Shown here in pieces: positions 5,669-46,319 of a stretch of DNA of 52,674 nucleotides (its first letter is position 1; the number at the start of each line of letters is the position of its first letter). The DNA comes from a virus. Location of the stretch: IMG/VR virus record IMGVR_UViG_3300030098_003093, positions 1 through 52,674 of that record; one strand, given 5' to 3'. A program made the translations under genes and the position numbers. Below the pieces are notes generated by a model, which worked only from the letters and a program-made list of their open reading frames with translations, made no database searches and had not been told where the DNA came from.

Positions 5669-5899
5669 ATGTGGGACTTATTTAAAAATAAAAATGAAAT
5701 AAACGAAAAGAATATAATTGGCTTTATATCTTTTGGTATAATGGTTTTGTTTGCTTTTGCAGACCTTGCCACTAGCTTTGTTTATTCAGGCGATGATGCT
5801 TATTTGTTGATAAATGATACAATATATAATTCTTTTGTTTTTGTAACATTAGGATGTTTTGGAATCAGTACTTTTGAAAAAATAAAAACTAAAGAATGA
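5669..5899 (+). CDS. Small two-span membrane protein
   Basis: I prefer the ATG at 5669 (76 residues, one base after the upstream TAG) over a GTG at 5657. The product has a charged N-terminus, then two hydrophobic segments (about 17-37 and 50-68) and a Lys-rich end. No family recognised. Its TGA overlaps the ATG of the large T9SS-type gene (ATGA), coupling translation to that gene. Confidence 0.5.
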   Translation: MWDLFKNKNEINEKNIIGFISFGIMVLFAFADLATSFVYSGDDAYLLINDTIYNSFVFVTLGCFGISTFEKIKTKE

Positions 5900-8800
5900 A
5901 AAATATTTTAATTTTATTATTAATACCTGTATTTGGCTTAGGGCAAGTTGTAAATACTTTTCCGTGGATACACGATTTTGAAAATGGCGTAGAACTAGAG
6001 CAAGATACAAATGATTTTGCTGATTGGTTGTTGCATCAGGGACCGACAAGTTCTTTTAACACAGGTCCGCAAGGAGACCACACTACCGGCAACGGTATAT
6101 ATTTTTATGTAGAATCTTCTAACCCTAATTTTCCAAATAAAGAATTCATATCTTACACACCAACATTTGACGTATCTGCAACACCTGGAAAAGTTTTGTC
6201 TTTTTGGTATCATATGCATGGTACTGCTATGGGGGATTTAGAAGTTGGAGTGTTAGATAGTAGTGGTTATACTGCTATAGACACTATATCTGGAAACCAA
6301 GGAAATATATGGAAGTTTGCTTACTACCCTATTCCTTCAACTAATGTGTTTAAAATAGCGTTTAAAGCTACTACTGGGTCTAGCTATACTAGTGATATAT
6401 GTATTGACGATTTATTAGTTGGAGACCCTTTTAATGTTGTTTTTGGATGTAATGATAGTGTTTCGTCTAATTACAACCCATTAGCAACTCATAGTGATGG
6501 TAGTTGTATTTATTATTATGGATGTATAGACCCTACTGCTACAAATTATAATCCTTGGGCTAATGTAGATAACGGTAGTTGCATTCAAGAGGTTGTTTGT
6601 AATCCAGGTCAATCTTTAATTGATGTGGCTATAAAACTAGATAATTGGCCAAGTGAAACCTCTTGGTTAATATATTCTGCTACAGATACATTTGCTTCTG
6701 TTCCAAGTGGAACTTACGATTATACACAAACAGGACAAACGGTGCATACACAAGTTTGTGTTCCTGTAGGAGACTCTATAGTGTTTACAATTAATGATAC
6801 ATATGGTGATGGTATTGGGGGTGGCTCTGTAGTTGGTAGTTGTTTGGTAACTAATATAGACTGTCAAGACACTTTATTTTTATTAAACCCGCCAAACTTT
6901 GGAACAACAGCGTCTTCAAGTCCCTACGTTTCTGCATCGTGCAATAATGATACTATAATATATGGTTGTACTACTCCTAGTTATTTAGAATATGACTCTC
7001 TTGCTACTGTAGACGATGGTAGTTGTTTAACGTTAGCTACTTATGGCTGTACTGATTTAGCTGCTTTTAATTACGACCCAACGGCAGATAGAATGTTATT
7101 AACCTCGCCTTGCACTTATGATTTAATATTATATGATGACGGTGGTGATTCATGGGGGGCTTGCTGGTTAGGAGTAGAGCAAGGAGATTCTTTATGGCAG
7201 TTTAAAATAACTCAAAATGGAGTTTATTCTGATACATTTGAGTTAGTTCTTAATTCTAATGATGAGGTTTATTTCTATTACTTTGAAATACCTACTCCTC
7301 AACAAAACCCTCAACAATTAGATATACAAACAATACAAAATTCTTTTAAACTAGAAAATAGTTACGGAGTTGTGCTGCATGAGGGAAACAATCCTTGGCC
7401 AGGGCCTAATGAAAATAAATTAAGAAACTATAAAAGCGCTTTAGATATTTACGAAGCTCAGCCTTTTTGCGGAACAGAGTGTATACTGGTTATTACTGGT
7501 TGTATGGATGCTATAGCTTATAATTACAATTCTTTAGCAAATACTAATGATACTTGTTATTATAGCCCTGGCTGTAATAATCCAGGTTATTTAGAATATT
7601 ATACTCAAGGATATATAGCAGATATTGATGATGGTAGTTGTAGCACTGTAGCGGTGTTTGGCTGCACAGACTCCACATCCTTTAATTATAGTGTTACAGC
7701 TAACGTAGATAACGGGGGTTGTGTTCCTGTTGTTTTAGGGTGTATGAATCCTTTAGCATTTAACTACAACCCTCAAGCTAATACAAACGATACATGTATA
7801 CCGGTTATATATGGTTGTATGAGCTCTATAGCTATAAATTACAATCCACTGGCTAATACAGATGATGGTTCTTGTATTGGTGTTGTGTATGGGTGTACTG
7901 ATTCAACCATGTTTAATTTTTCTCCTAGTGCAAATACAGATGACGGTAGTTGCGTGCCTTACATTTACGGTTGTATGGACGCTACTATGTTTAACTATAA
8001 CCCATTGGCCAATACAGATAATGGAAATTGCATTCCATTTATATACGGGTGTATGGACACGGCATCATTTAACTATGACCCATTGGCAAACACAGATAAC
8101 GGGACTTGCATACCTGTAATTTTAGGTTGTACAAACCCAATAGCTTTAAATTACTGTGACTCTTGTAATACAGATGATTTTAGCTGTATATTGCCTATAT
8201 ACGGGTGCACCGATAGCACAATGTTTAATTATAACCCTTTAGCTAATGTTGACAATAACTCTTGTATTCCTTTTATTTATGGTTGTACTGACCCTAGTAT
8301 GCTCAACTACAATCCGTCAGCTAATACAGAAGATTTTAGTTGCATTCCTTTTATTTACGGTTGTATGGATAGCACTGCTCTTAACTATGATTCGTTGGCT
8401 AATACTGACAATGGTTCGTGTATTGAAGCTATTGCGGGATGTAGAGACCCAAATGCGTTTAATTATAACCCGTTGGCAAACATAATAGCACACGATTCTT
8501 TAGGTTGCTTGTATGCAGCAGAACAATGTGTAAATGGGTCTGGAAACCCTTTCTTTTTAAATGACGAATGTTATGCTTGGGTAATAGAAGTAGATGAATA
8601 TTGTTGTTACAATGAGTGGGATAGTATATGTCAATTAACATATAATCATTGCTCAGATGGATGGACAGGAGAAATGCCTCCTGCAAGAAAAACAAAAAAA
8701 GAAATTTTATTATACCCTAACCCAACGAAAGGAATTGCTAACTTTAGCATACCTGTAGATGTAGAGGTTTATGACTTTACTGGTAAAAGAGTATTAGAAA

Positions 8801-8907
8801 TAAAAAACACAAACAGTGTAAATTTATCTAGTTATAGCAGGGGGGTGTACAATATTATCGCTATATTTGAAGACGAATTAATGCAATATAAACTTATAAA
8901 AGAATAA
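5896..8907 (+). CDS. Secreted MAM + GCTD-repeat protein with a T9SS C-terminal sorting domain
   Basis: 1003 residues. An N-terminal signal peptide (about 1-16, ending VFGLGQ) is followed by a MAM-like domain (about 20-180; FPWIHDFENG, GDHTTGNG, LSFWYHMHG). Roughly 18 Cys-containing repeats of the form GCTDSTxFNYNPLANTDDGSC follow, the first few interspersed with beta domains and about a dozen in tandem (about 540-870). A Cys-rich module comes next, and the protein ends in a type A T9SS sorting domain (about 934-1003; LLYPNPTKG, VYDFTGKRV, GVYNI). In Bacteroidota such proteins cross the inner membrane by Sec and the outer membrane by T9SS and become surface-attached or released. In a phage late operon this predicts a surface-displayed or secreted product made by the infected cell. 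The repeats are shared with the giant virion protein at 39850-45447. Confidence 0.8.
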   Translation: MKNILILLLIPVFGLGQVVNTFPWIHDFENGVELEQDTNDFADWLLHQGPTSSFNTGPQGDHTTGNGIYFYVESSNPNFPNKEFISYTPTFDVSATPGKVLSFWYHMHGTAMGDLEVGVLDSSGYTAIDTISGNQGNIWKFAYYPIPSTNVFKIAFKATTGSSYTSDICIDDLLVGDPFNVVFGCNDSVSSNYNPLATHSDGSCIYYYGCIDPTATNYNPWANVDNGSCIQEVVCNPGQSLIDVAIKLDNWPSETSWLIYSATDTFASVPSGTYDYTQTGQTVHTQVCVPVGDSIVFTINDTYGDGIGGGSVVGSCLVTNIDCQDTLFLLNPPNFGTTASSSPYVSASCNNDTIIYGCTTPSYLEYDSLATVDDGSCLTLATYGCTDLAAFNYDPTADRMLLTSPCTYDLILYDDGGDSWGACWLGVEQGDSLWQFKITQNGVYSDTFELVLNSNDEVYFYYFEIPTPQQNPQQLDIQTIQNSFKLENSYGVVLHEGNNPWPGPNENKLRNYKSALDIYEAQPFCGTECILVITGCMDAIAYNYNSLANTNDTCYYSPGCNNPGYLEYYTQGYIADIDDGSCSTVAVFGCTDSTSFNYSVTANVDNGGCVPVVLGCMNPLAFNYNPQANTNDTCIPVIYGCMSSIAINYNPLANTDDGSCIGVVYGCTDSTMFNFSPSANTDDGSCVPYIYGCMDATMFNYNPLANTDNGNCIPFIYGCMDTASFNYDPLANTDNGTCIPVILGCTNPIALNYCDSCNTDDFSCILPIYGCTDSTMFNYNPLANVDNNSCIPFIYGCTDPSMLNYNPSANTEDFSCIPFIYGCMDSTALNYDSLANTDNGSCIEAIAGCRDPNAFNYNPLANIIAHDSLGCLYAAEQCVNGSGNPFFLNDECYAWVIEVDEYCCYNEWDSICQLTYNHCSDGWTGEMPPARKTKKEILLYPNPTKGIANFSIPVDVEVYDFTGKRVLEIKNTNSVNLSSYSRGVYNIIAIFEDELMQYKLIKE

Positions 8908-28570: not shown

Positions 28571-28602
28571 CAAATATAATAAATTTTTTATTAACAACAC
28601 AA
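28571..28602 (-). promoter_or_regulatory. Leftward Bacteroidota-type promoter
   Basis: Minus strand TATATTTG-type box (28571-28578, CAAATATA on plus), with TTG options at 28595-28597 (16 nt) or 28600-28602 (21 nt). A TTATTAACA box (28588-28596) overlaps. It is divergent from the rightward promoter at 28623-28630. Confidence 0.6.
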
Positions 28603-28622
28603 TTTAAATCAACTTTTATTAC

Positions 28623-28630
28623 TATATTTG
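28623..28630 (+). promoter_or_regulatory. Rightward TATATTTG promoter element
   Basis: TATATTTG, 22 nt before the ATG at 28653; the -33 TTG is not clear. Drives the GroES-like operon. Confidence 0.5.
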
Positions 28631-30049: not shown

Positions 30050-30318
30050 TAGAAGAAATAGCTCAAATGCAAAAAGAAGAAAGAATAATATATAACTCAA
30101 TGTTTTATTCTTATATGGTTTTAACAAAACAGGCTACTGTAAAAGAACTGTTTGAGTCAAGTAAAGATTTTGGATTATTATTCCACCCAGAAGATTTGGA
30201 ACACTTAAAAGGTCAAGAAGCCACAGACATAATAGACTGCCTTATAGATTTCTTTATAGAGATAGAGGAATACGAAAAGTGTCAAGACTTAGTTGATATA
30301 AAAGAATTATATAAATAA
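30046..30318 (+). CDS. Hypothetical helical protein
   Basis: 90 residues, acidic, helical: EEIAQMQKEERIIYNSMFYSYMVLTKQATVKELFESSKDFGLLFHPEDLEHLKG. No family recognised. Last gene before the bidirectional terminator. Confidence 0.45.
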   Translation: MIEEIAQMQKEERIIYNSMFYSYMVLTKQATVKELFESSKDFGLLFHPEDLEHLKGQEATDIIDCLIDFFIEIEEYEKCQDLVDIKELYK

Positions 30319-30323
30319 AAAAA

Positions 30324-30344
30324 GGGGCATAAAGCCCCTTTTTT
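30324..30344. terminator. Bidirectional intrinsic terminator
   Basis: GGGGC-ataaa-GCCCC stem flanked by A-run on the left and T-run on the right, between convergent genes ending at 30318 and 30362. It serves both strands. Confidence 0.9.
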
Positions 30345-30361: not shown

Positions 30362-30724
30362 TTATCCTTTAGTAAAGTAAGCGTACTCTAATACACAAGC
30401 AGCTGTATTAGCTTGAAATTCTAAACCTGTACTTGGAGCTAAAGGTAAAAATGCAAATTCTCCTGGAGATAGTCTAGCAAAAGCTGTTGCTGCATCCGTT
30501 CTTACATCAATATAATTAGTTGTATCTATATTTTTTAAATACACATAATTAATTGCAGATATTGAACTAGCTATAAGTGTTGTTACACCACTGTGAGATA
30601 TAGAAGCTCTTGCTATATTTACAGCAGGATTTGTTGTTGTTAAAGTATCTGTTACCGTAATACTTAAAGAATCAGCAGTAGCATCTGTGCTTGTCAATGT
30701 TAATGTTGGTGTTAATGTTGCCAT
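30362..30724 (-). CDS. Beta-rich putative virion protein
   Basis: 120 residues, rich in Thr/Ser/Ala: LTSTDATADSLSITVTDTLTTTNPAVNIARASISHSGVTTLIASSISAINYVYLKNID, all strand-like, ending with a Phe/Tyr-rich stretch. Probably a head decoration or fibre tip. It follows the 360-residue gene in one leftward transcript. Confidence 0.5.
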   Translation of the reverse strand: MATLTPTLTLTSTDATADSLSITVTDTLTTTNPAVNIARASISHSGVTTLIASSISAINYVYLKNIDTTNYIDVRTDAATAFARLSPGEFAFLPLAPSTGLEFQANTAACVLEYAYFTKG

Positions 30725-30749
30725 TTTAATTTATTTTTTTAAGTTAATA

Positions 30750-31832
30750 TTACGTTGTTAATGCTGATTCAGTTCTAGTTAAAGCTGTAGCAACTGTTTC
30801 ATCTAAAGCTAAAGTGTCATAACCATGTTTACCAGTTCCTTTCATTATGATTTGACATTTGTCTGTACCTAAAGCTGTTCCGTCAGCTGACAATTCACCA
30901 GCAACTGAGTCACGACCAGAAACAATATTCTTAAGTCTAAGTATTCCAGAAACAGAAGTGTCAGGAAAAGCAACTATTCTTGAGTTTACTGTTAATGTTG
31001 CAAAGTCAGCAAGTCCAGTTTTACCTCCTAAATGATTAGTAAAAGAAGTCATTAACCCGTCTAACGAAGTTTCTATATCTAATATGTCTACATGAGGAGA
31101 ATTTACGCCTGCACAATTATTATTAGATTTGTCATACCAAGTAGCCCAGTCATCTGCAGAAGCTATGCTTCCTGAAACAGGAACTGCTAATCCTTCATAA
31201 GCCATAATAACTCTATCAAGATTAATCATTAAGTTATTTTCTAAAATTGTGTCAGCATCATAAGCTACACCATTTAATGTGTTAACCTCAACTACTCTTA
31301 ATTGTCCAGATTCAGCAGACACACCTAAACCTCCATCTGCTACATTTACACAAGGCTCTACTGTTCTGATTTCAATAGGTCTTCCTCCACCCATTGTGTC
31401 AGCATAAAGAAGTTTACCTTGCACTCTATATACAGGTAACTCTAGTCCAGTCGCACCAGTTGTAATGTCTTGTTTAGTGTTAGCATCATAATCAGTTTCA
31501 CTTCCATGTAAAAATACATTATCAGCACCAGTTATTTTTTGTCTGAAAATTTTACCAGGAGTATAGTCAGAAGAAGCTATATCAAAGTTTCCTACTGAAT
31601 CTCCTACATCCCCAACACGAATATACTCTCCTGTTGTAAGACCGTGAGCTGTAATAGTCAAAGCATCAGTTGCCGCAGTAGCGACAGTAGCATTAATTCC
31701 TAATGCTGTTTCTACATTAGTACCATAGATAATATGCTCGGTACTAAGCATCATTGTTTTTGCGTCAGCAGCAGTCGTACCGAACTCTTCGTTTCCGTAC
31801 TTTAACACGCTTACGCTAATTAAGTTTGCCAT
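30750..31832 (-). CDS. Beta-rich putative head fibre/decoration protein
   Basis: 360 residues, strongly beta, with LTITAHGLTTGEYIRVGDVGD, IFRQKITGADNVFLHGSE and IEIRTVEPCVNVADGGLGVS; the C-terminal half is more helical (DHVDILDIETSLDGLMTSFTNHL-like segments). Low charge and high Thr/Ala fit a virion surface protein. It is transcribed leftward from a promoter symmetric with that of terminase, although it most likely belongs to the virion. Confidence 0.5.
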   Translation of the reverse strand: MANLISVSVLKYGNEEFGTTAADAKTMMLSTEHIIYGTNVETALGINATVATAATDALTITAHGLTTGEYIRVGDVGDSVGNFDIASSDYTPGKIFRQKITGADNVFLHGSETDYDANTKQDITTGATGLELPVYRVQGKLLYADTMGGGRPIEIRTVEPCVNVADGGLGVSAESGQLRVVEVNTLNGVAYDADTILENNLMINLDRVIMAYEGLAVPVSGSIASADDWATWYDKSNNNCAGVNSPHVDILDIETSLDGLMTSFTNHLGGKTGLADFATLTVNSRIVAFPDTSVSGILRLKNIVSGRDSVAGELSADGTALGTDKCQIIMKGTGKHGYDTLALDETVATALTRTESALTT

Positions 31833-31870
31833 TTTTTTAATTTTTTATTATTAATAGATTGATTGTAATG

Positions 31871-31900
31871 CAAATATAGTTAAATCATTTGATATATCAA
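31871..31900 (-). promoter_or_regulatory. Leftward arm of a symmetric divergent promoter
   Basis: Minus strand TTG (31898-31900), 19 nt, TATATTTG (31871-31878). Shares the perfect palindrome TTTGATATATCAAA (31888-31901) with the rightward arm. Leader of about 35 nt to the ATG at 31832. Confidence 0.7.
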
Positions 31901-31918
31901 AATTTTTTGTTATATTTG
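31889..31918 (+). promoter_or_regulatory. Rightward arm of a symmetric divergent promoter
   Basis: TTG (31889-31891), 19 nt, TATATTTG (31911-31918). Both arms are symmetric around the same axis as the palindrome. The terminase ATG begins only four bases after the -7 box, so the transcript would be leaderless or nearly so. Confidence 0.7.
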
Positions 31919-31922
31919 TATC

Positions 31923-33956
31923 ATGTCAAGTAAAGAAATTTATGGAATACCAGTTAATATTCCAAAGAAACCTTCTAAGCGTTTTATTTTAGGAAATGAC
32001 AAGCCTAAGAAAAAACAAAAATGGGAAAGAACAGAGCTTCCAGACAACTGGGAAATATTACCAGAGTCTAAAAGAGCTAAGTTTATAGAGCAAGAGTTTA
32101 AAAGAAGAACTGAAGGGGTTTGGTTTATGAACAATGGTAGGGCAACATATATAACAGGTTTGCATTATTATTATTTAAACTGGTGTAAAATAGATATAGG
32201 GTATCCAGATTACTGGGATAGAGACAGAAGGTTTTTTCTTATATGGGACGGAGTAAGAAGTAATCCAGATTGTTACGGATTAATAATGCCAAAACATAGA
32301 AGGCAAGGAGCCTCTTGGAAAGCTGCTGCAATTGTTATGCATGATATAACTCTATCTTACAATTCCAATGGTGGGATTATGAGTAAAACGGGTTCTGATG
32401 CTAAAAAGCTCTTTGACAAGGTTGTGTTTATGTTTAGAAAGTTACCAGATTTTTTTCAACCTATTATTGAGGGAACCGATTCTCCTAAAACAGTGCTTTC
32501 ATTTAAAAAGCCTGGAGAAAAGATTACTAAGAATAATGTTAAGGTTAAAAAATCTGAAGCTCTAGATAGTCAGATAGATTGGAGGAATACTAAAAACAAC
32601 TCTTATGATGGAGAAAAACTTAAGACGTTTGTTTCCGATGAGGGGGGTAAGTGGTTAGAAGCTGATGTTTCTAAAAATTGGCAAATTGTAAAGCCAGCTC
32701 TTTCAGAAGGGATAAGAATTATAGGTAAAGCTTTTTTACCATCTACAGTTAACGAAATGGAATCTGGGGGTAAGGCTTTTAAAGATATATGGGATGACTC
32801 TAATCAAGAAGAAATTGTTCCTGGAATAAATAGAACTAAATCTGGTTTATACAGATATTTTACTCCAGCTTATGATGGCTTTGAAGGGTTTATAGATGAG
32901 TATGGAAATAGTGTTATAGAAAACCCTAAAAAGATAACTTATGACAAATATGGAGAAAAGATTAATATTGGAAGTAAGGAGTATCTAGAGGGAATTAGAA
33001 ATAGTTTTAAAAACGATACTAATAAATTAGCGGAATACAAAAGACAATTCCCTTTTACCCCAGAAGAAGCTTTTAGGGTAAGTACTGATGATTGTTTGTT
33101 TGATTCAGAAAGAATATATCAACAAATAGATTATATTGAAGGGATGGGTAATAATATGATTGTAAAAGGTAATTTCATATGGAAAAATGCTGAAAAAGAC
33201 AGTGAAGTAATATGGATACCTGATAGAAAAGGAAAATGGAAAACAGTATGGATGCCGGATGCTGAAGATATGAATGCTAAAGTGGTAAAAAGAAATGGCG
33301 TTTTCCCAGGAAACGAATTACATTTAGTTTCTGGATGTGACCCTTTTGACCATGATATAACAACAGATGGAAGAAGGTCTGATGCGGCTTCTTATGTGTT
33401 TAGAAAATTAAATGTTCATGACCAAAACAATTCAAATATGTTTGTGTCAGAATATATACATAGGCCTCCAAAAGCAGAAATGTTTTTTGAAGACATGTTA
33501 AAACAATGTGTTTTTTTTGGATGTCCAATATTAGTAGAGAATAATAAAATAGGATTAATACAATATTTTAAAAGAAGAGGATACGAAAAATACTTAATGG
33601 CAAGACCGGAATCTACACATACAAAGTTTAGTTTAAAACAAAAAGAGGTTGGTATACCAGCAACTGGTTCGGCTGTTGCTAATGCTATTGTAGACTCTAT
33701 ACAAGCGTATATATATGATTATGTGGGAGTTAACGAAGAAGAGGATGAAATAGGAAGAGTCTTTTTTATAAATTTATTAAAAGACTGGCTTGAATTTGAT
33801 ATAAATGATAGAACTAAATTTGACGCTACTATGGCATCAGGTATAACTTTATTAGCTTCACAGAAAAAAATTAAACCAAAAACAGAAATAAAACAAACAC
33901 AATCTTTTGTGAGAAAATATAGCAACACAGGAGTAATGTCTAAATTAATAAAATAA
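31923..33956 (+). CDS. terL: Terminase large subunit
   Basis: 677 residues with an ATPase-nuclease plan. The ATPase contains MPKHRRQGASWKAA (Walker A-like, about 122-135) and later acidic segments; the nuclease domain begins near D473 (LVSGCDPFDHDITTDGRRSDAAS) with further conserved ILVENNKIG and DSIQAYIYDY. It powers DNA packaging at the portal and cuts the concatemer. The layout resembles terminases of crAss-like and related Bacteroidota phages. No small terminase is evident beside it. Confidence 0.9.
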   Translation: MSSKEIYGIPVNIPKKPSKRFILGNDKPKKKQKWERTELPDNWEILPESKRAKFIEQEFKRRTEGVWFMNNGRATYITGLHYYYLNWCKIDIGYPDYWDRDRRFFLIWDGVRSNPDCYGLIMPKHRRQGASWKAAAIVMHDITLSYNSNGGIMSKTGSDAKKLFDKVVFMFRKLPDFFQPIIEGTDSPKTVLSFKKPGEKITKNNVKVKKSEALDSQIDWRNTKNNSYDGEKLKTFVSDEGGKWLEADVSKNWQIVKPALSEGIRIIGKAFLPSTVNEMESGGKAFKDIWDDSNQEEIVPGINRTKSGLYRYFTPAYDGFEGFIDEYGNSVIENPKKITYDKYGEKINIGSKEYLEGIRNSFKNDTNKLAEYKRQFPFTPEEAFRVSTDDCLFDSERIYQQIDYIEGMGNNMIVKGNFIWKNAEKDSEVIWIPDRKGKWKTVWMPDAEDMNAKVVKRNGVFPGNELHLVSGCDPFDHDITTDGRRSDAASYVFRKLNVHDQNNSNMFVSEYIHRPPKAEMFFEDMLKQCVFFGCPILVENNKIGLIQYFKRRGYEKYLMARPESTHTKFSLKQKEVGIPATGSAVANAIVDSIQAYIYDYVGVNEEEDEIGRVFFINLLKDWLEFDINDRTKFDATMASGITLLASQKKIKPKTEIKQTQSFVRKYSNTGVMSKLIK

Positions 33957-33957
33957 A

Positions 33958-36243
33958 ATGAAAAGAAAAAATCTTTATGGGTTTCCCAATCCATTTGCTT
34001 CCCGAGAAGAGAAGTTACAAAAAGAATATGGGCTTCAATACTTCAGACAAATTTATAGAGAATGGGAGGATGAAGGCTCTGGTATAAGTTTAATGTCTAC
34101 AAGAAATCAAAGGTATAGAAAATATAGAGAGTACGCTGAAGGAATGCAATCTGTAGACCAATATAAAGAATTAGTTGGAGCAAACGGAGATAGTTCTTAC
34201 TTAAATTTAAACTGGGAAGTTGTTCCTATCATTCCTAAATTTGTAGATGTAATTTCAGGAGGCCTTATGAATCAAGACTACAAAATTAAATGTACAGCAA
34301 TTGACCCTTTTTCTGTAGATAAAAGAAATGAGGATAAATGGGAAATGGTAACAAAAATGGAGCTTAAAGATTTTATGGAAGAAATGTCTGGGTTAAGCGG
34401 GCTGCCTATGAATGAAGGGTTTAAAGATTTGCCAGAAACTTCAGAAGAACTAGACCTGTACATGCAATTAAATTACAAGCAAGCTACAGAAATAGCAATG
34501 GAAGAAGGTATAGAATTAACAATGTATCTTAATGATTGGGAAGAGGTAAAGAAAAGAATCATAAGAGATTTAATAGTTTTAAATATAGGAGTATGTAAAA
34601 CAGGTGTTGAAAACGGAAAAATAACAATACGTTATGTAGACCCTATAAATTTTGTATCTTCACATTCTTCTAGGCCAGATTTTAAAAACATGGAGTATGC
34701 TGGAGAGGTTATATATATAACTATACATGATTTAAAAAGAATGGCTGGAGACCAATTTAGCGAAGATGAATATCAAGAAATTGCACAATCAGTTTTAGGA
34801 AAGCATGGAAACCCTAAAAGTATTTCTACTACAACTGTAAATTATAATGGTTTTGAAACTACAGAATATGATACTTATAAAATAGCTGTATTAGATGGTG
34901 TGTTTAAATGCACAGATTCTACTAATTATGAAAAGAAGCAAAATAAATATGGGGGTTATTCTGTAAATAAAAAATCTTCTAATTATAAACCGCCTAAAAG
35001 CCCTAGGTATAAAAGAGAGCAAGTAAAGTCTTCTGTTGAAATGATATATAAAGGTAAATATATAGTTGGTACAGATTTCTTATTTGATTATGGTATTGCT
35101 GAAAATATTGTAAGACCTAAAAGTCATTTAGAAAAAGCTTTGATGCCTTTTTGTGTTTATGCTCCTAATATTATAAATATGAATAATAAAGGATTAGTGG
35201 AAAGAATGATTCCTTTTGCAGACCAAATACAATTGTCTCATTTAAAGATGCAACATCTTATTTCTAAAGTAAAACCAAAAGGTTCTGCTATTGAGTTAGG
35301 GGCTATAGAAAATGTAGGCAAAGGAGATGGTGGTACTTTTACACCTATAGAAGTTCAAGATATATATCAGCAAACTGGTAATTTATATTACAGAATTCAG
35401 CAAGATGACGGAACTCCTGGCAACTCTACCCCTATACAAGAACTAGGAGGAGGAATTGGAGGCGCTTTACAAGAGTTAATAGCAATCTATCAGTACAACT
35501 TACAGATGATTAGAGATGTAACTGGTATTAACGAAATTAGAGCTGCAGAACAACCAGACAAAGAATCTTTAGTAGGTGTTCAAAAAATGGCTTTATTAGC
35601 TTCCAATAATGCTACCAGATGGTTAAATCAAGCTTATTTAAATATTACACAAAATATGTGTAAAAGTATTGCTTTAAGAGTTCAAGATTTAGTTAACTAC
35701 TCAGGACCTTACAAAGGATATATTCAAGCTATTGGAGAGTTTAATATGAAAGCTATTGAGGTGACAAAAGATGTCACTTTGGCAGACTTTGGCATTATGA
35801 TTGAGCCTTTACCAGATGATGAGGAGAAGGCTATATTAGAACAAAACATACAAATGTCTTTGCAACAACAACAATTAAGATTAGAGGATGCTATTATGAT
35901 TAGAACAATTCCTAATGTTAAATTAGCAAATCAATTATTAGTTTTAAGAAGAAAAAAATACGCAACAGAACAACAAGAAATGGCAATGGCAAATGCTCAA
36001 GCAAATGCACAGCAACAACAAGCTTCTGTTGCAGCAAAAGCTCAAGCTGACGCTCAATTAAAACAAATGGAGGCTCAATCAGAAATGCAAAAAATGCAAG
36101 CCGAGTTTCAGATGAAAGAAGCGTTTGCAGAAGCAGAGCATAAAAGAAAACTTATTGAGTTAGAATATCAAGGAAGTATTAAATCTGACCATATTAAATT
36201 AGCAGAGGATGATTCTGACCTTGTAAGAACAAAAGTAAAATAA
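33958..36243 (+). CDS. Portal protein
   Basis: 761 residues; the position directly after terminase and the helical, Tyr-rich architecture fit a portal. Long charged helices at the start, a beta-rich middle with VIYITIHDLKRM and MIYKGKYIVGTDFLFDYG, then helices ALQELIAIYQYNLQMIRDVTGINEIR, and a Gln/Ala-rich coiled coil at the C-terminus, common in large portals of Bacteroidota phages. Twelve copies would form the vertex through which DNA passes. Confidence 0.8.
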   Translation: MKRKNLYGFPNPFASREEKLQKEYGLQYFRQIYREWEDEGSGISLMSTRNQRYRKYREYAEGMQSVDQYKELVGANGDSSYLNLNWEVVPIIPKFVDVISGGLMNQDYKIKCTAIDPFSVDKRNEDKWEMVTKMELKDFMEEMSGLSGLPMNEGFKDLPETSEELDLYMQLNYKQATEIAMEEGIELTMYLNDWEEVKKRIIRDLIVLNIGVCKTGVENGKITIRYVDPINFVSSHSSRPDFKNMEYAGEVIYITIHDLKRMAGDQFSEDEYQEIAQSVLGKHGNPKSISTTTVNYNGFETTEYDTYKIAVLDGVFKCTDSTNYEKKQNKYGGYSVNKKSSNYKPPKSPRYKREQVKSSVEMIYKGKYIVGTDFLFDYGIAENIVRPKSHLEKALMPFCVYAPNIINMNNKGLVERMIPFADQIQLSHLKMQHLISKVKPKGSAIELGAIENVGKGDGGTFTPIEVQDIYQQTGNLYYRIQQDDGTPGNSTPIQELGGGIGGALQELIAIYQYNLQMIRDVTGINEIRAAEQPDKESLVGVQKMALLASNNATRWLNQAYLNITQNMCKSIALRVQDLVNYSGPYKGYIQAIGEFNMKAIEVTKDVTLADFGIMIEPLPDDEEKAILEQNIQMSLQQQQLRLEDAIMIRTIPNVKLANQLLVLRRKKYATEQQEMAMANAQANAQQQQASVAAKAQADAQLKQMEAQSEMQKMQAEFQMKEAFAEAEHKRKLIELEYQGSIKSDHIKLAEDDSDLVRTKVK

Positions 36244-36266
36244 TAGGAATATTCAAAAACTTTTTG

Positions 36267-36274
36267 TATATTTG
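36267..36274 (+). promoter_or_regulatory. TATATTTG promoter element
   Basis: TATATTTG, 32 nt before the ATG at 36307, after a T-run. No clear -33 TTG. It would add transcription for scaffold and capsid genes. Confidence 0.45.
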
Positions 36275-39849: not shown

Positions 39850-42800
39850 ATGGCAGTACTATCCGCTTACTCTTATCTTTTTGAAGTAAATCCAACAGAC
39901 CAAACTACAGGTCTTGGAAAAAACGGAGACCATAGCGCTAATTATGGGTCAGCTAATACAGGGGCAGCATTAACAACAGGAAATTGGTCTCCTCCTGCAG
40001 GTCATCAAGGGGGTACTTTTGCTGCAAATAATACTACTAACCCTCCTACTCCTGGGGGTGTTTCAGGTAGGGGTGGTAAAACAACAGTAAGGGTTACTAT
40101 CGCTATAGATAGAAGTAATTTTAAACCTGCACTTGGGCCTACTGGTTCTGGATTAGAAAGACCAATAGCTCCAAAAATGCTAGAAATACAAGATATTACT
40201 GGAGATGGTATTTATCCAAGCTTACAACATTTTCCTGGTGGGCAATATAATCATCCTTTAGGTTTGAATGCAGGTGGTGCCTCGTCAGGAGAGTACCGAG
40301 TTCTTGATTATGTTGATGACGGAAAATTTCATGAAGCTTTAACTGCTGGTTCTACAGGTCATAGTACTTATCAGGGAGGAGGGATACCTCCGACATCAGG
40401 AGAAAGAACATTTCAAGTAGAATTTACTAATGGTCATATAGAAACTATTACTGTTTTTGTTTTAGGAAGAAATGCCTTATACCATGAAGGGGAAGACATT
40501 ACAGATATTGCTATTGATACAAATCTTCCTAGTTTTTACGGTAATGGAATGACTCATACAGGAGCGGGAAATGTTAGTACATATTCTACACTAGATAGTG
40601 AAAGTGTATCTGTTGGTAAATTTTCTGGCGGTGAATCTGCAATACGAATGAATTATAACACCCTAAGCCCTCCTAGCAGCGGAACTCCAGCAGGATGGCC
40701 TGTTAATACAATTTTAAATAGCCCTTCAATGGGTAGTACTGATGCATATTGTGGGGGTTATGAACCTAGAATGCTGGTTGGTAGTCAATCATTAATAGGT
40801 CACCCTAATTTAAAATGGGGAACAACTATTGAGCCTGGAGGTTGTAGCGGTTCTTGTTGGGACGGAACTCCTAAGTCGTTAGTTATGGCCGCTAAGGTTG
40901 TGCAAGATGACGACGAAAGATTTGCTGGAATTACAGATTTTGTATTGCACGATATAGCATCCTTAAACTCAGGTTTTGGTTCATCAGGAAATAAAGTTTA
41001 TTCTGGGGTGCCTCATAACTGGGTTGGTTATGCTAAATTTAATAGTGGTTGGAGTCAACCATCATTAATAGCCGGTCAATATCCACCTTTAAATATGCTA
41101 GGGACTCCTACTGGTAGTAATTTTACTGCTAATTTAGATAATACATATATTGATTTTAATAATAATAGTTTAGATAAAAATTCTTACTTTAGAATACCTG
41201 CTAGCCCTATAAGTGTAAATAACTCTGCAGGCTCTTTAGATACAGAGATAAGAGAAATTTTTCTACATGAAGATTCATGGATTATAGGAACGGTTGGAGG
41301 TCTTTACGAACCAACATCTACTTATGATGCTGTTGTTACTGCAATGTCAGGTGTTAATACGGGAAGTAGTCCAGGAACAGAGAGTTTTAGCTCTGCAGTT
41401 TCCCACACTTATAAATATATTGAAGATGATGTGGATGACCCTTGTAGGAATTTTTCAGTTTCTAATGTTCCTTATACAACTACGGATGAAACTTCAGTTG
41501 GAGCTAACGATGGAACTTTTAGTATAAGTCTTCCGGCTTCAGGTGCGCCTTATAATATAACTATAACAGATAGTTCGGGGACTGTTGTAGGTACTAACAA
41601 TACAGCTTCTAATTTAGCTCCAGGAATGTACACTGTTACCGTTAGAGATAATTCAGATTGTGAAGACCAAATGGCGTTTATGATTTATGCTTCTACTTCT
41701 AGTCCCTGCAACATACAGGCTACAGCAAGCGCATCTATAAAATGTGCCGGGCTATCAACTTTAACTATAAATACTAATCAACCGACAAGTTCTTGGAAAA
41801 CAACTTGGAAAGACCCTTCAGGGGTAGTAATTCCTGTGTTAGGAAACATTTATCAACCACAAGTAAGTGTAAATGCTTCTACAAATCCTGGTACATATAC
41901 GGTTGAAATAGAAGATACTAATTTTGCTTCAGGGGTATGTGTTTTACTTCTTTCAATACCAAATGTTTCTGCTACTGCAATAAACTTAAGCGCAACAGCA
42001 ACAGATGTTACTGTTTTTGGTGGTTCTGATGGAACAGCTACTGCTTTAACTTCTGGAGGGACACCTCCTTTTAATTACTCTTGGAGTAATGGTGCTACTA
42101 CTCAACTTATATCTAATTTAACTGCAGGAACTTATAGCGTAACTGTTACAGATAGTTCTAATTGTACGACTACAGCTAGTGTTACAGTTGGGCAACCTGT
42201 AACCAAGCCAGTTAACGCAAAATGTTTAGATGTTTGCTTAGATTTAGATAATGGAGTGTTTGATTTTGTTGATAATAATGATTATTCTCCAGCAGGCCCA
42301 CAATTACCTTATAGAATTGCTTTAACAATAGAGCATTCAAACGGAACAATAGTTCACCCTGGTTCTTTAGGAAATCCTGATATATTTTCGGATTCAAATT
42401 TAAGCAATGTAAGAACTTACAATTACAATATAAAATACGGTCAAAACAATAAAATACAAATACCATCTAGTAGTGGAAATTATATTTCTGATGTTTATAA
42501 AGTAACAACAGAATGGAATTTTTCAGGAACTTCAGTTCCGGAAGTAACAAAAGTATGCTATATTAACGCTCAAGGATTAGCGATGTTTGATAATATTTCT
42601 ATTGATACATCTTTAACATATAGTTGTACTGGAGATATTATAAGTAAAGACAATACTGTTTATGGCATGAGTGGTATTCCTTTTACTATATCTAGAACTC
42701 ATAAATTATTTGGGCCTTCTACAAGTGGATTGCCAACTCCAGCTTTTACAACTGGAACAAATATGATAACTCATTCTTTATACGAAGGAACTTGGGATAA

Positions 42801-45447
42801 TTTTATAGAAACAGAAATAAAATGGACAATCCCTTCTAGTCCTGCTTTAGGAATAACATATGAGCCTTTGTGTGTTACAAAGACATTATACGGAACTGCT
42901 TCTGTTGACGTAGAATGTTTTGTTGACCCTTGTGTAGTTCAATATTACACAAAAAAAATAAGAAATAAATATGATAAAGCTGTTTGCGATTGCGACACTT
43001 TAAAAATAAAAAAATATAGAGCTCAACTACAAAGAATTGTTGAGTTATTAAATGTATTCATAATAGGAGAACAATCAGAGTGTGCAAATGATTATTCAGA
43101 ATTATGGACTATTCTTGGAATTAGCTACCAAGACCATTTAACCGACCCTAACTGTTGCTCATCTATTAAAGACGCAACACCTAATCCTAAATTAATAGGA
43201 GACGGGTGTATAGGAGATGTAGGGGATTGTGGAGATGATGGAGGAGGAGGTGGGAAACCACCGCCACCACCACCACCGCCGCCAAATAATTGCGCCTGCG
43301 ACTCTACTACTCCTTATTGGGATTTTACACTCCAAGCAGCTGGAGGTTATGCCGTTGGAGATTTAGTGTGGCACACAACACAGATTGGAGGAAATGATGT
43401 TCCTGTTAATACTTGTAAAGCGTGTTTTGAAGTGGGGACTATTCCTACGGGAGGTTGGGACCCAACTTTACCTATCAACGAATTGCCAAATGAAGATAAA
43501 CAACAATATTGGACTTTTGTTACTTGTAATGTTTCTAGTCAAAACAAAGATTGTTTTGGATGTACAGATAAAAATTCTATTGGTTACAATCCAAATGCTG
43601 TGTATGATGATGGTTCTTGTATTCCTTGCGTATATGGATGTCCAGACAGTACAGCATTAAACTATAATTCAGCTGCTACTTGTGACGATGGTTCATGTAT
43701 AGCTGTTGTTTATGGTTGTACAGACCCACTAGCTTTGAATTATTACCCTGGAGCAAATGTTGATGACGGTTCTTGTTGTTATATTTCAGGCTGTACAGAT
43801 GGAGCCGCTACAAATTATTCTCCTACTGCTTGTTATGATGATGGCTCATGTATATATCCAGGAGCATGTACTTCTACTAATTGGGTTAATATTTATTCTT
43901 CTCCAGTTTTACTTCACGATGGTATACCAAAATTTTCAAACTTAGTTTTAGATAATGGAAATAATATTTGGGCTTGGGTGGCTTCAAATAGATTTCCGTA
44001 TGGCCCTATGAATCATCCGATTAATCGTAGTTTGGCTATAGGTCCTGCTGCAGACGTTACATCTCCTACTGATTATTGGGCTCAATCGGCTGGAACTTGG
44101 AATATAAGCCCTGCGCTTAGTTCACTTCCAAACTTTCCTGTTAGTTCTCAAGAAATAGTTACTACAGGAGATGGAAGGTTTTGGTTTGTAAATGGGGAAG
44201 GAGTATCTCAAACAAATGCTTTTGCGGGAATGTCCAGCGCTTCAGCAACTAACGCCGGGGGTGTATTTAGCAGTAAATATAATATTACTTCTCATGCTCT
44301 TCCTGCTTTAGTGAAAAATAAAGAAATGAGATATGTTACTATGGATGTTGATGGTGCTTCTACTCCACTTTTACATATATTATTTGGCTCACGAGATTCT
44401 GCTGATAGCGTTACTCACGGAAGTGGAGGCTCAGAAAGTGGTGCTTATAAAACTTACTATTATACAATGGATACTTCTAATGGTAGCTTTACCTTAGTTG
44501 ATACATTAAATGAATCAAATACAGACTGTCATTTATATTGGAGAAATGAAAACTCTCATGATTTAACTAGTCAATATAAAAACGAAAAAGGAGAAATTAA
44601 TGCTAAATTAAAATGTGATTCTTCTAATAAACCATGGGTTGTTTCTAATGGTAAAATAATGAAATACGATAGTGGGTGGAAAAACATATCTGGAAGTGCT
44701 GCTACAGCAAATGCGGGAGACTTTCATACTCATGCTACTACTGGGGCTAACACTGTTTTCACTGAAGATGCATCAGGTTCAACAAGAAATCCTGGGGGAA
44801 TGTATGGAACAAATCATTGGGAGTATAGAGAAATAACACTAGACTTTTTAATTGACGGTTCTAATAAATACATTTTAACTTATAGTACTAGAAAATTAGA
44901 CAATGCTTCACAACAGGGAAGTTCTCCAGCTGGAGCTGTAAAAGCTACTGATAGAAAAGCAGAAATTATATTACATCATCACAACGGAAGTAGTTGGGCT
45001 CATCACGTTGTACCTACTGCCACTGATTCTAGCGGAGGCTTATTATATGAGCATCCTTTTGATAATTATTTAGATTATCCACGAACAGGAGATACTACAA
45101 CAGCAAAACCTACTATAGCTGTAAGGTCAGGGATTCCTTATGTTTTTGTGTCAACCAATGTTCATGATGGAAGTGACTACGGAGAAACTAGTAAAACTAC
45201 AGTGTATAAATATGATAGCGGATGGACAAAAATAGGAGATGATATTGTAATAGGAGCGCATGGTTGGGGAGCAGATGATACTAATTATAATTATAGTAGA
45301 TTGCTTCAGCCTTTAACGCAATTATTATATAATTCTACTACTGATGAAATTTATGCTATGTCTAACACAGTACCTTCAAATGTAACTGATTTACCTACTG
45401 GGGACTGGACAGGATTTGATGTCATAATTAAAAAAATATGTTTTTAA
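39850..45447 (+). CDS. Giant fibre-like virion protein with SprB-like and GCTD repeats
   Basis: 1865 residues. About 1-530: beta-rich with little charge. About 530-620 and 690-780: domains resembling SprB repeats, the second with GGSDGTATALTSGGTPPFNYSWSNGATTQLI, NLTAGTYSVTVTDSSNC (SprB is the T9SS-secreted gliding adhesin of flavobacteria). About 780-1110: a beta domain and Cys-containing helical module. A Gly run and a nine-proline stretch near 1130-1150 act as a hinge. About 1230-1340: four GCTD-repeat units, as in the T9SS cargo gene. The C-terminal 500 residues are beta-rich with a propeller-like character (WVVSNGKIMKYDSGW, later YKYDSGWTKIGDD). Likely receptor-binding fibre. Confidence 0.65.
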   Translation: MAVLSAYSYLFEVNPTDQTTGLGKNGDHSANYGSANTGAALTTGNWSPPAGHQGGTFAANNTTNPPTPGGVSGRGGKTTVRVTIAIDRSNFKPALGPTGSGLERPIAPKMLEIQDITGDGIYPSLQHFPGGQYNHPLGLNAGGASSGEYRVLDYVDDGKFHEALTAGSTGHSTYQGGGIPPTSGERTFQVEFTNGHIETITVFVLGRNALYHEGEDITDIAIDTNLPSFYGNGMTHTGAGNVSTYSTLDSESVSVGKFSGGESAIRMNYNTLSPPSSGTPAGWPVNTILNSPSMGSTDAYCGGYEPRMLVGSQSLIGHPNLKWGTTIEPGGCSGSCWDGTPKSLVMAAKVVQDDDERFAGITDFVLHDIASLNSGFGSSGNKVYSGVPHNWVGYAKFNSGWSQPSLIAGQYPPLNMLGTPTGSNFTANLDNTYIDFNNNSLDKNSYFRIPASPISVNNSAGSLDTEIREIFLHEDSWIIGTVGGLYEPTSTYDAVVTAMSGVNTGSSPGTESFSSAVSHTYKYIEDDVDDPCRNFSVSNVPYTTTDETSVGANDGTFSISLPASGAPYNITITDSSGTVVGTNNTASNLAPGMYTVTVRDNSDCEDQMAFMIYASTSSPCNIQATASASIKCAGLSTLTINTNQPTSSWKTTWKDPSGVVIPVLGNIYQPQVSVNASTNPGTYTVEIEDTNFASGVCVLLLSIPNVSATAINLSATATDVTVFGGSDGTATALTSGGTPPFNYSWSNGATTQLISNLTAGTYSVTVTDSSNCTTTASVTVGQPVTKPVNAKCLDVCLDLDNGVFDFVDNNDYSPAGPQLPYRIALTIEHSNGTIVHPGSLGNPDIFSDSNLSNVRTYNYNIKYGQNNKIQIPSSSGNYISDVYKVTTEWNFSGTSVPEVTKVCYINAQGLAMFDNISIDTSLTYSCTGDIISKDNTVYGMSGIPFTISRTHKLFGPSTSGLPTPAFTTGTNMITHSLYEGTWDNFIETEIKWTIPSSPALGITYEPLCVTKTLYGTASVDVECFVDPCVVQYYTKKIRNKYDKAVCDCDTLKIKKYRAQLQRIVELLNVFIIGEQSECANDYSELWTILGISYQDHLTDPNCCSSIKDATPNPKLIGDGCIGDVGDCGDDGGGGGKPPPPPPPPPNNCACDSTTPYWDFTLQAAGGYAVGDLVWHTTQIGGNDVPVNTCKACFEVGTIPTGGWDPTLPINELPNEDKQQYWTFVTCNVSSQNKDCFGCTDKNSIGYNPNAVYDDGSCIPCVYGCPDSTALNYNSAATCDDGSCIAVVYGCTDPLALNYYPGANVDDGSCCYISGCTDGAATNYSPTACYDDGSCIYPGACTSTNWVNIYSSPVLLHDGIPKFSNLVLDNGNNIWAWVASNRFPYGPMNHPINRSLAIGPAADVTSPTDYWAQSAGTWNISPALSSLPNFPVSSQEIVTTGDGRFWFVNGEGVSQTNAFAGMSSASATNAGGVFSSKYNITSHALPALVKNKEMRYVTMDVDGASTPLLHILFGSRDSADSVTHGSGGSESGAYKTYYYTMDTSNGSFTLVDTLNESNTDCHLYWRNENSHDLTSQYKNEKGEINAKLKCDSSNKPWVVSNGKIMKYDSGWKNISGSAATANAGDFHTHATTGANTVFTEDASGSTRNPGGMYGTNHWEYREITLDFLIDGSNKYILTYSTRKLDNASQQGSSPAGAVKATDRKAEIILHHHNGSSWAHHVVPTATDSSGGLLYEHPFDNYLDYPRTGDTTTAKPTIAVRSGIPYVFVSTNVHDGSDYGETSKTTVYKYDSGWTKIGDDIVIGAHGWGADDTNYNYSRLLQPLTQLLYNSTTDEIYAMSNTVPSNVTDLPTGDWTGFDVIIKKICF

Positions 45448-46274: not shown

Positions 46275-46293
46275 TATAAATAAATAATTAGGA

Positions 46294-46319
46294 ATACTCA
46301 TTAATTTTGAGTATATTTG
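46294..46319 (+). promoter_or_regulatory. TATATTTG promoter with overlapping inverted repeat
   Basis: TATATTTG (46312-46319), 16 nt before the ATG at 46336. ATACTCA-n7-TGAGTAT (46294-46314) is a perfect 7-bp inverted repeat overlapping the promoter, suitable for a repressor or activator. Confidence 0.5.

Follow-up and report, generated by a model that had tools for sequence, protein, structure and literature searches.

Back-to-back host-type promoters and a predicted leaderless terminase mRNA in a phage of Bacteroidetes-type bacteria

The viral contig analysed here (52,674 bp, G+C 33%) is taken as a whole and called the window below. It belongs to a phage of Bacteroidetes-type bacteria and carries two divergent promoters around a short palindrome. 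Two questions are raised by this locus: what the symmetry represents, and whether the terminase mRNA begins at its own start codon. The original prediction held that one bound regulator could control terminase and the leftward structural genes equally, or that two polymerases may compete, and that the terminase mRNA was leaderless. Re-reading of the sequence showed that the coordinates claimed for both boxes and the palindrome were exact and that both TTTG/TTG-to-box spacers were 19 nt. The 52.7 kb record contains one copy of the divergent promoter composite, which has the following parts.

31911..31918, + strand: rightward (terminase) -7 element TATATTTG; predicted +1 at 31923 (4 nt spacing) or 31924 (5 nt spacing), the spacing being that of PMC6847099
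31888..31891, + strand: rightward -33 element TTTG, spacer 19; in relatives a TTG/TGG variant, spacer 19-20
31871..31878, - strand: leftward -7 element TATATTTG, which reads CAAATATA on the + strand; predicted +1 at about 31866
31898..31901, - strand: leftward -33 element TTTG, spacer 19
31888..31901, both strands: 14-bp palindrome TTTGATATATCAAA, made of two face-to-face -33 elements and ATATAT

Both promoters match the Bacteroidetes primary sigma -7 element TAHHTTTG exactly and, like the primary sigma promoters of Bacteroidetes (TTTG / TAnnTTTG), have TTTG at -33. Bacteroidetes -33 elements (TTTG/TTG at about 19-21 nt) were found on both sides in the window, at 19 nt; the clade B variants described below were weaker. 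Most promoters of this phage have no clear -33 element, as in F. johnsoniae (PMC6847099), whereas the divergent pair has both, shared head to head. The symmetry axis of the back-to-back promoters is at 31894.5. Because the two -7 boxes define the axis and both spacers are equal, the -33 elements are mirror images. The three symmetric elements of the original prediction are therefore for the most part a single fact, a pair of promoters whose spacers are equal. With both -7 boxes taken as fixed, a perfect 7/7 palindrome exactly on the axis had p ~6e-4 with a shuffled 32-nt spacer; once two equally spaced TTTG elements were granted, chance had only to cover three A/T pairs (p ~0.045). The symmetric centre, with its ATATAT core, exceeds the need of two -33 elements, which counts against the reading by overlap given below. 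Clear symmetry is confined to the boxes and the central 14 bp; of the 9 pairs that separate them, 3 were symmetric.

The bidirectional promoters of E. coli (Warman et al., PMC12825309) likewise consist of pseudo-symmetric DNA on which the two polymerases are expected to exclude each other. Those promoters share a -10 element and have transcription start sites (TSSs) 10, 18 or 23 bp apart, whereas here the -33 regions overlap, with 32 bp separating the boxes and about 57 bp the predicted TSSs; assignment to the E. coli type was rejected on these two distances. Among the matches listed for box gaps of 29-35 in viral contigs, the 32-bp gap was the commonest (27/120), and the phage's own group contributes to this number.

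Non-late promoters at 28589-28630 (+), 19534-19493 (-) and 12131-12089 (-) have the motif T[AT]TTAACA (TTATTAACA) 26-28 bp upstream of the -7 box. Most of the related contigs have the motif too. Its centre falls near -42 relative to the predicted start, and it is probably an element of early or middle promoters, spaced like an activator site.

When the terminase large subunit (TerL) was used as query, 24 viral loci matched it at 70-94% identity, and many others were more distant. Ten contigs formed clade A (the window, L002-L006, L014, L020, L021 and L237). The box-to-box layout CAAATATA-N32-TATATTTG (48 bp), with both boxes conserved, was invariant in these ten and six clade B contigs at TerL identities of 77-94%; the 16 contigs were aligned on the 32-bp spacing, and the unfiltered listing gave the same layout in every clade A or B contig with an intact region. 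The fixed 32 bp is sufficiently explained by the position of each -33 element in the opposite spacer, since any indel alters at least one spacer. The centre changed in sequence. Most of clade A had TTGTATATATGCAA and similar centres, with both TTG elements shifted to a 20-nt spacer. In L004 and L021 the centre was TTTGATATATAAAA, and the leftward TTTG, with the left half of the palindrome, was gone. Clade B had TGGGAATATTCCTA or less symmetric forms, mostly with only 4/7 pairs. Three of the seven central pairs were symmetric in all relatives, two of them with two-sided changes, and the other pairs were broken. In a further relative, L019, the leftward box stood at the usual offset from a different perfect 14-mer palindrome (TATGTTATAACATA), and the rightward box was 12 bp further off. 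Elements TAGGAATATTC, TTGCAATATTC or TAGGAATACTC were located at the same offset before the non-divergent late promoters 36267 and 46312 and their orthologues. As elements of the same type occur at non-divergent late promoters and the centre is variable, the centre is best read as overlapping -33 regions. The late promoters at 36246-36274 (+) and 46291-46319 (+) carry TAGGAATATTC and TAGGAATACTC at -33, a variant of the TTG -33 element that was seen in several relatives.

A dimeric phage regulator that binds TTTGATATATCAAA and jointly represses or activates both promoters would also produce a perfect palindrome on the axis. Such an operator would account for the partial symmetry that the centre keeps in relatives through changed sequences (TTTGATATATCAAA, TTGTATATATGCAA, TGGGAATATTCCTA), with both-sided changes at two pairs, and for the L019 palindrome, which keeps its offset from one box though the other has moved. 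The loss of the left half in L004 and L021 and the 4/7 pairs of most clade B contigs argue against it, as do late promoters with no divergent partner, in which a similar element (TAGGAATAYTC or TTGCAATATTC) has the same offset. The perfect palindrome has no other copy in the window, where three matches at ≤2 mismatches were found against 1.5 expected, a chance level; a repeated phage-wide operator was rejected on the single copy. No candidate regulator gene was recognised among the early and small ORFs whose proteins were scanned. We regard the operator as unlikely, and two overlapping host-type promoters as the better explanation of the palindrome on sequence grounds. The shared regulator of the original prediction stands as the weaker possibility, the palindrome being accounted for by face-to-face -33 elements and changing in relatives while the promoters persist. 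That the symmetry and the short spacing are functionless accidents of AT-rich DNA is barely credible: an ATATAT core costs little in DNA of this kind if the TTTG elements are taken as given, but the box geometry is invariant at the TerL identities given above, the TerL spacing is kept across clade A, and the short-distance class described below is discrete across gene families.

The leftward promoter serves a small unit, with these features.

30750..31832, - strand: first leftward gene, 360 aa, all-beta (AF2 model), fast-evolving, probably virion structural; no PHROG/Pfam match
30362..30724, - strand: second leftward gene, 120 aa; two copies in some relatives
31833..31865, - strand: leftward mRNA leader with conserved (A)CAATCAATC and an A-rich end
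30318..30344, both strands: bidirectional intrinsic terminator AAAAAAGGGGC..GCCCCTTTTTT with symmetric A and T flanks, recorded on the - strand

The unit consists of only two ORFs (360 and 120 aa) and is closed by the terminator, a symmetric GGGGC/GCCCC structure between the GroES operon and the leftward cassette. The 360-aa protein was 32-80% identical among relatives, some of which miss an insertion domain. Its AF2 model (pLDDT 79, pTM 0.82) had no confident fold match, and no PHROG, Pfam or phage tblastn match was found; a virion role is likely. The claim of equal control over terminase and leftward structural genes holds only in part: the unit is a small variable cassette of two ORFs, for which a structural role is plausible. 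Much of clade A, and some of clade B, kept the (A)CAATCAATC leader motif. The cassette at 30362-31832 (-) is missing from clade C and, in L004, was more divergent than its flanks (34% vs 87% identity), which together mark it as a likely site of mosaic exchange.

Gene order was conserved as ORFs 28653 and 28900, GroES, 29741, 30046, leftward cassette, TerL and portal. Clades A and B and L019 have the cassette; clade C lacks it, and there the terminator directly precedes the TerL promoter. In Maribacter phage Panino and the Flavobacterium elemo phages, as here, a TerL homologue (36-37% identity) lies between GroES and portal; unlike here, their GroES and TerL genes abut, with no cassette and no intergenic promoter. 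A search of GTDB genomes for TerL relatives, as a guide to the host, gave none. Two large proteins are encoded elsewhere in the window. The 1003-aa protein at 5896-8907 (+), unusual for a phage, combines a MAM domain with a C-terminal sorting domain of the Por secretion system (a type IX secretion signal). The 1865-aa protein at 39850-45447 (+) has a match to the SprB repeat, a family known from flavobacterial gliding adhesins.

The rightward promoter is followed by the packaging genes.

31923..33956, + strand: terminase large subunit (TerL), 677 aa, phrog_6681 (E 3e-152); start and N terminus conserved; mRNA predicted leaderless
33958..36243, + strand: portal protein, next in the terminase operon, phrog_6547 (E 1e-140)

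The TerL ATG at 31923 lies four bases (TATC) past the box, as originally read. In probable promoters of F. johnsoniae the -7 element (T-12 to G-5) is separated from the transcription start by 4 or 5 nt; 241 of 434 candidate promoters had this spacing (PMC6847099). When this distance, which comes from another flavobacterium, was applied here, the predicted +1 was the A of the terminase AUG (31923) or 31924. All ten clade A contigs had box-to-ATG distances of 4 or 5 nt; relatives with 5 nt could have a 1-nt leader. TerL codons 2-68 showed a synonymous excess in most clade A comparisons. In clade B (TerL 77-80%) the same box is followed by a 15-16 nt A-rich leader and then ATG, and in clade C (TerL 75-76%) the distance is 16-18 nt. 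Clade A is monophyletic in the tree (support 100/99), so the short spacing most simply arose once in that clade. Further off, the TerL clade of L334-L339, 52-53% identical to clade B, has TATCTTTG, 6 nt and ATG, an independent near-leaderless terminase.

An in-frame upstream start, named in the original prediction as a refuting observation, was looked for, and no ATG, GTG or TTG was found between the TGA stop at 31890 and 31923. The terminase mRNA would nevertheless be leadered if it came from another upstream promoter or if initiation took place several bases upstream. The TSS-to-box distance does vary, and a TAAGTTTG sequence is found at 31821; that box, however, has G where mapped promoters nearly never do (PMC6847099) and falls inside the conserved start of the leftward gene. 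Transcription from upstream would also have to cross the terminator (30318-30344) and then 1.5 kb of genes in the opposite orientation, which makes read-through from the GroES operon into TerL unlikely, and the 4-5 nt spacing in 10/10 clade A contigs would be left unaccounted for. We consider a leadered terminase mRNA improbable. The leaderless terminase mRNA is a prediction with strong though indirect support from position, conservation, the lack of an in-frame start upstream and a discrete short-distance class in related phages.

That class was seen in a survey of 412 ORFs of related phage loci, in 127 gene families. Box-to-ATG distances were bimodal: 14 of 127 families had 3-7 nt (seven of them exactly 4), none had 8-11, and the main mode began at 14. 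Control motifs gave a flat distance distribution in an earlier count. A pyrimidine before the ATG was a weak trend in the short-distance class, with no clear enrichment. The gap between 3-7 nt and distances that were mostly at least 14 nt suggests that very short leaders are excluded. The other promoters in the window lie 15-40 nt from their ATGs, as had been claimed (15, 16, 19, 22, 23, 24, 31, 32, 34, 38 and 40 nt).

Leaderless mRNAs are already known as a minority (about 4-6%) in hosts. They make up 5.5% of mapped mRNAs in F. psychrophilum (PMC9723704), and about 3.7% of 5' UTRs in B. thetaiotaomicron are shorter than 10 nt (PMC7366714). As host transcriptomes show a real leaderless minority, a leaderless TerL message is plausible and not exceptional in kind. 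The phage case resembles the leaderless mRNAs of Bacteroidetes in having AUG at the predicted +1; it differs in that the gene is a phage packaging gene, sister clades are leadered and the prediction comes from sequence.

It is likely, in our view, that this locus contains back-to-back, interpenetrating host-sigma-type promoters and that the rightward +1 is at or near the terminase AUG, leaving the mRNA leaderless. Two host-sigma-type (TTTG / TATATTTG) promoters would stand back to back with each -33 element within the spacer of the other, and the palindrome would be mainly the overlap of the two -33 elements. Because of this geometry, only one RNA polymerase would be bound at a time, and it is reasonable to expect exclusion or competition of polymerases at the shared region. 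The leftward promoter would drive the short, variable, terminator-bounded cassette and the rightward one terminase and portal. With the rightward +1 at the A of the AUG or one base away, the terminase mRNA is predicted to be leaderless. As to stoichiometry, we infer that near-identical promoters are transcribed at similar rates and that, as a likely consequence, output is set by translation, which would contrast an A-rich leader of 33-40 nt leftward with none rightward.

Bacteroidetes mRNAs lack Shine-Dalgarno sequences and, to our knowledge, the handling of leaderless messages by Bacteroidetes ribosomes has been little studied. A bolder reading, which we hold only tentatively and think may well fail, is that phages of Bacteroidetes have a discrete leaderless class with AUG at +1, selected since leaders of 3-9 nt are excluded, that leaderless versus leadered translation sets the output ratio of back-to-back promoters, and that a shared operator possibly co-evolves with a phage regulator. 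The exclusion of very short leaders is a testable rule, and the layout is useful for asking how Bacteroidetes begin translation without a leader. Close phage relatives differ in that some 12 nt of leader have been lost or gained in nature before the same gene and after the same -7 box, a ready-made comparison. The arrangements are of known kinds, in a little-studied group of phages, and they are chiefly useful because one gene can be compared, as it occurs in nature, in its leaderless and its leadered form.
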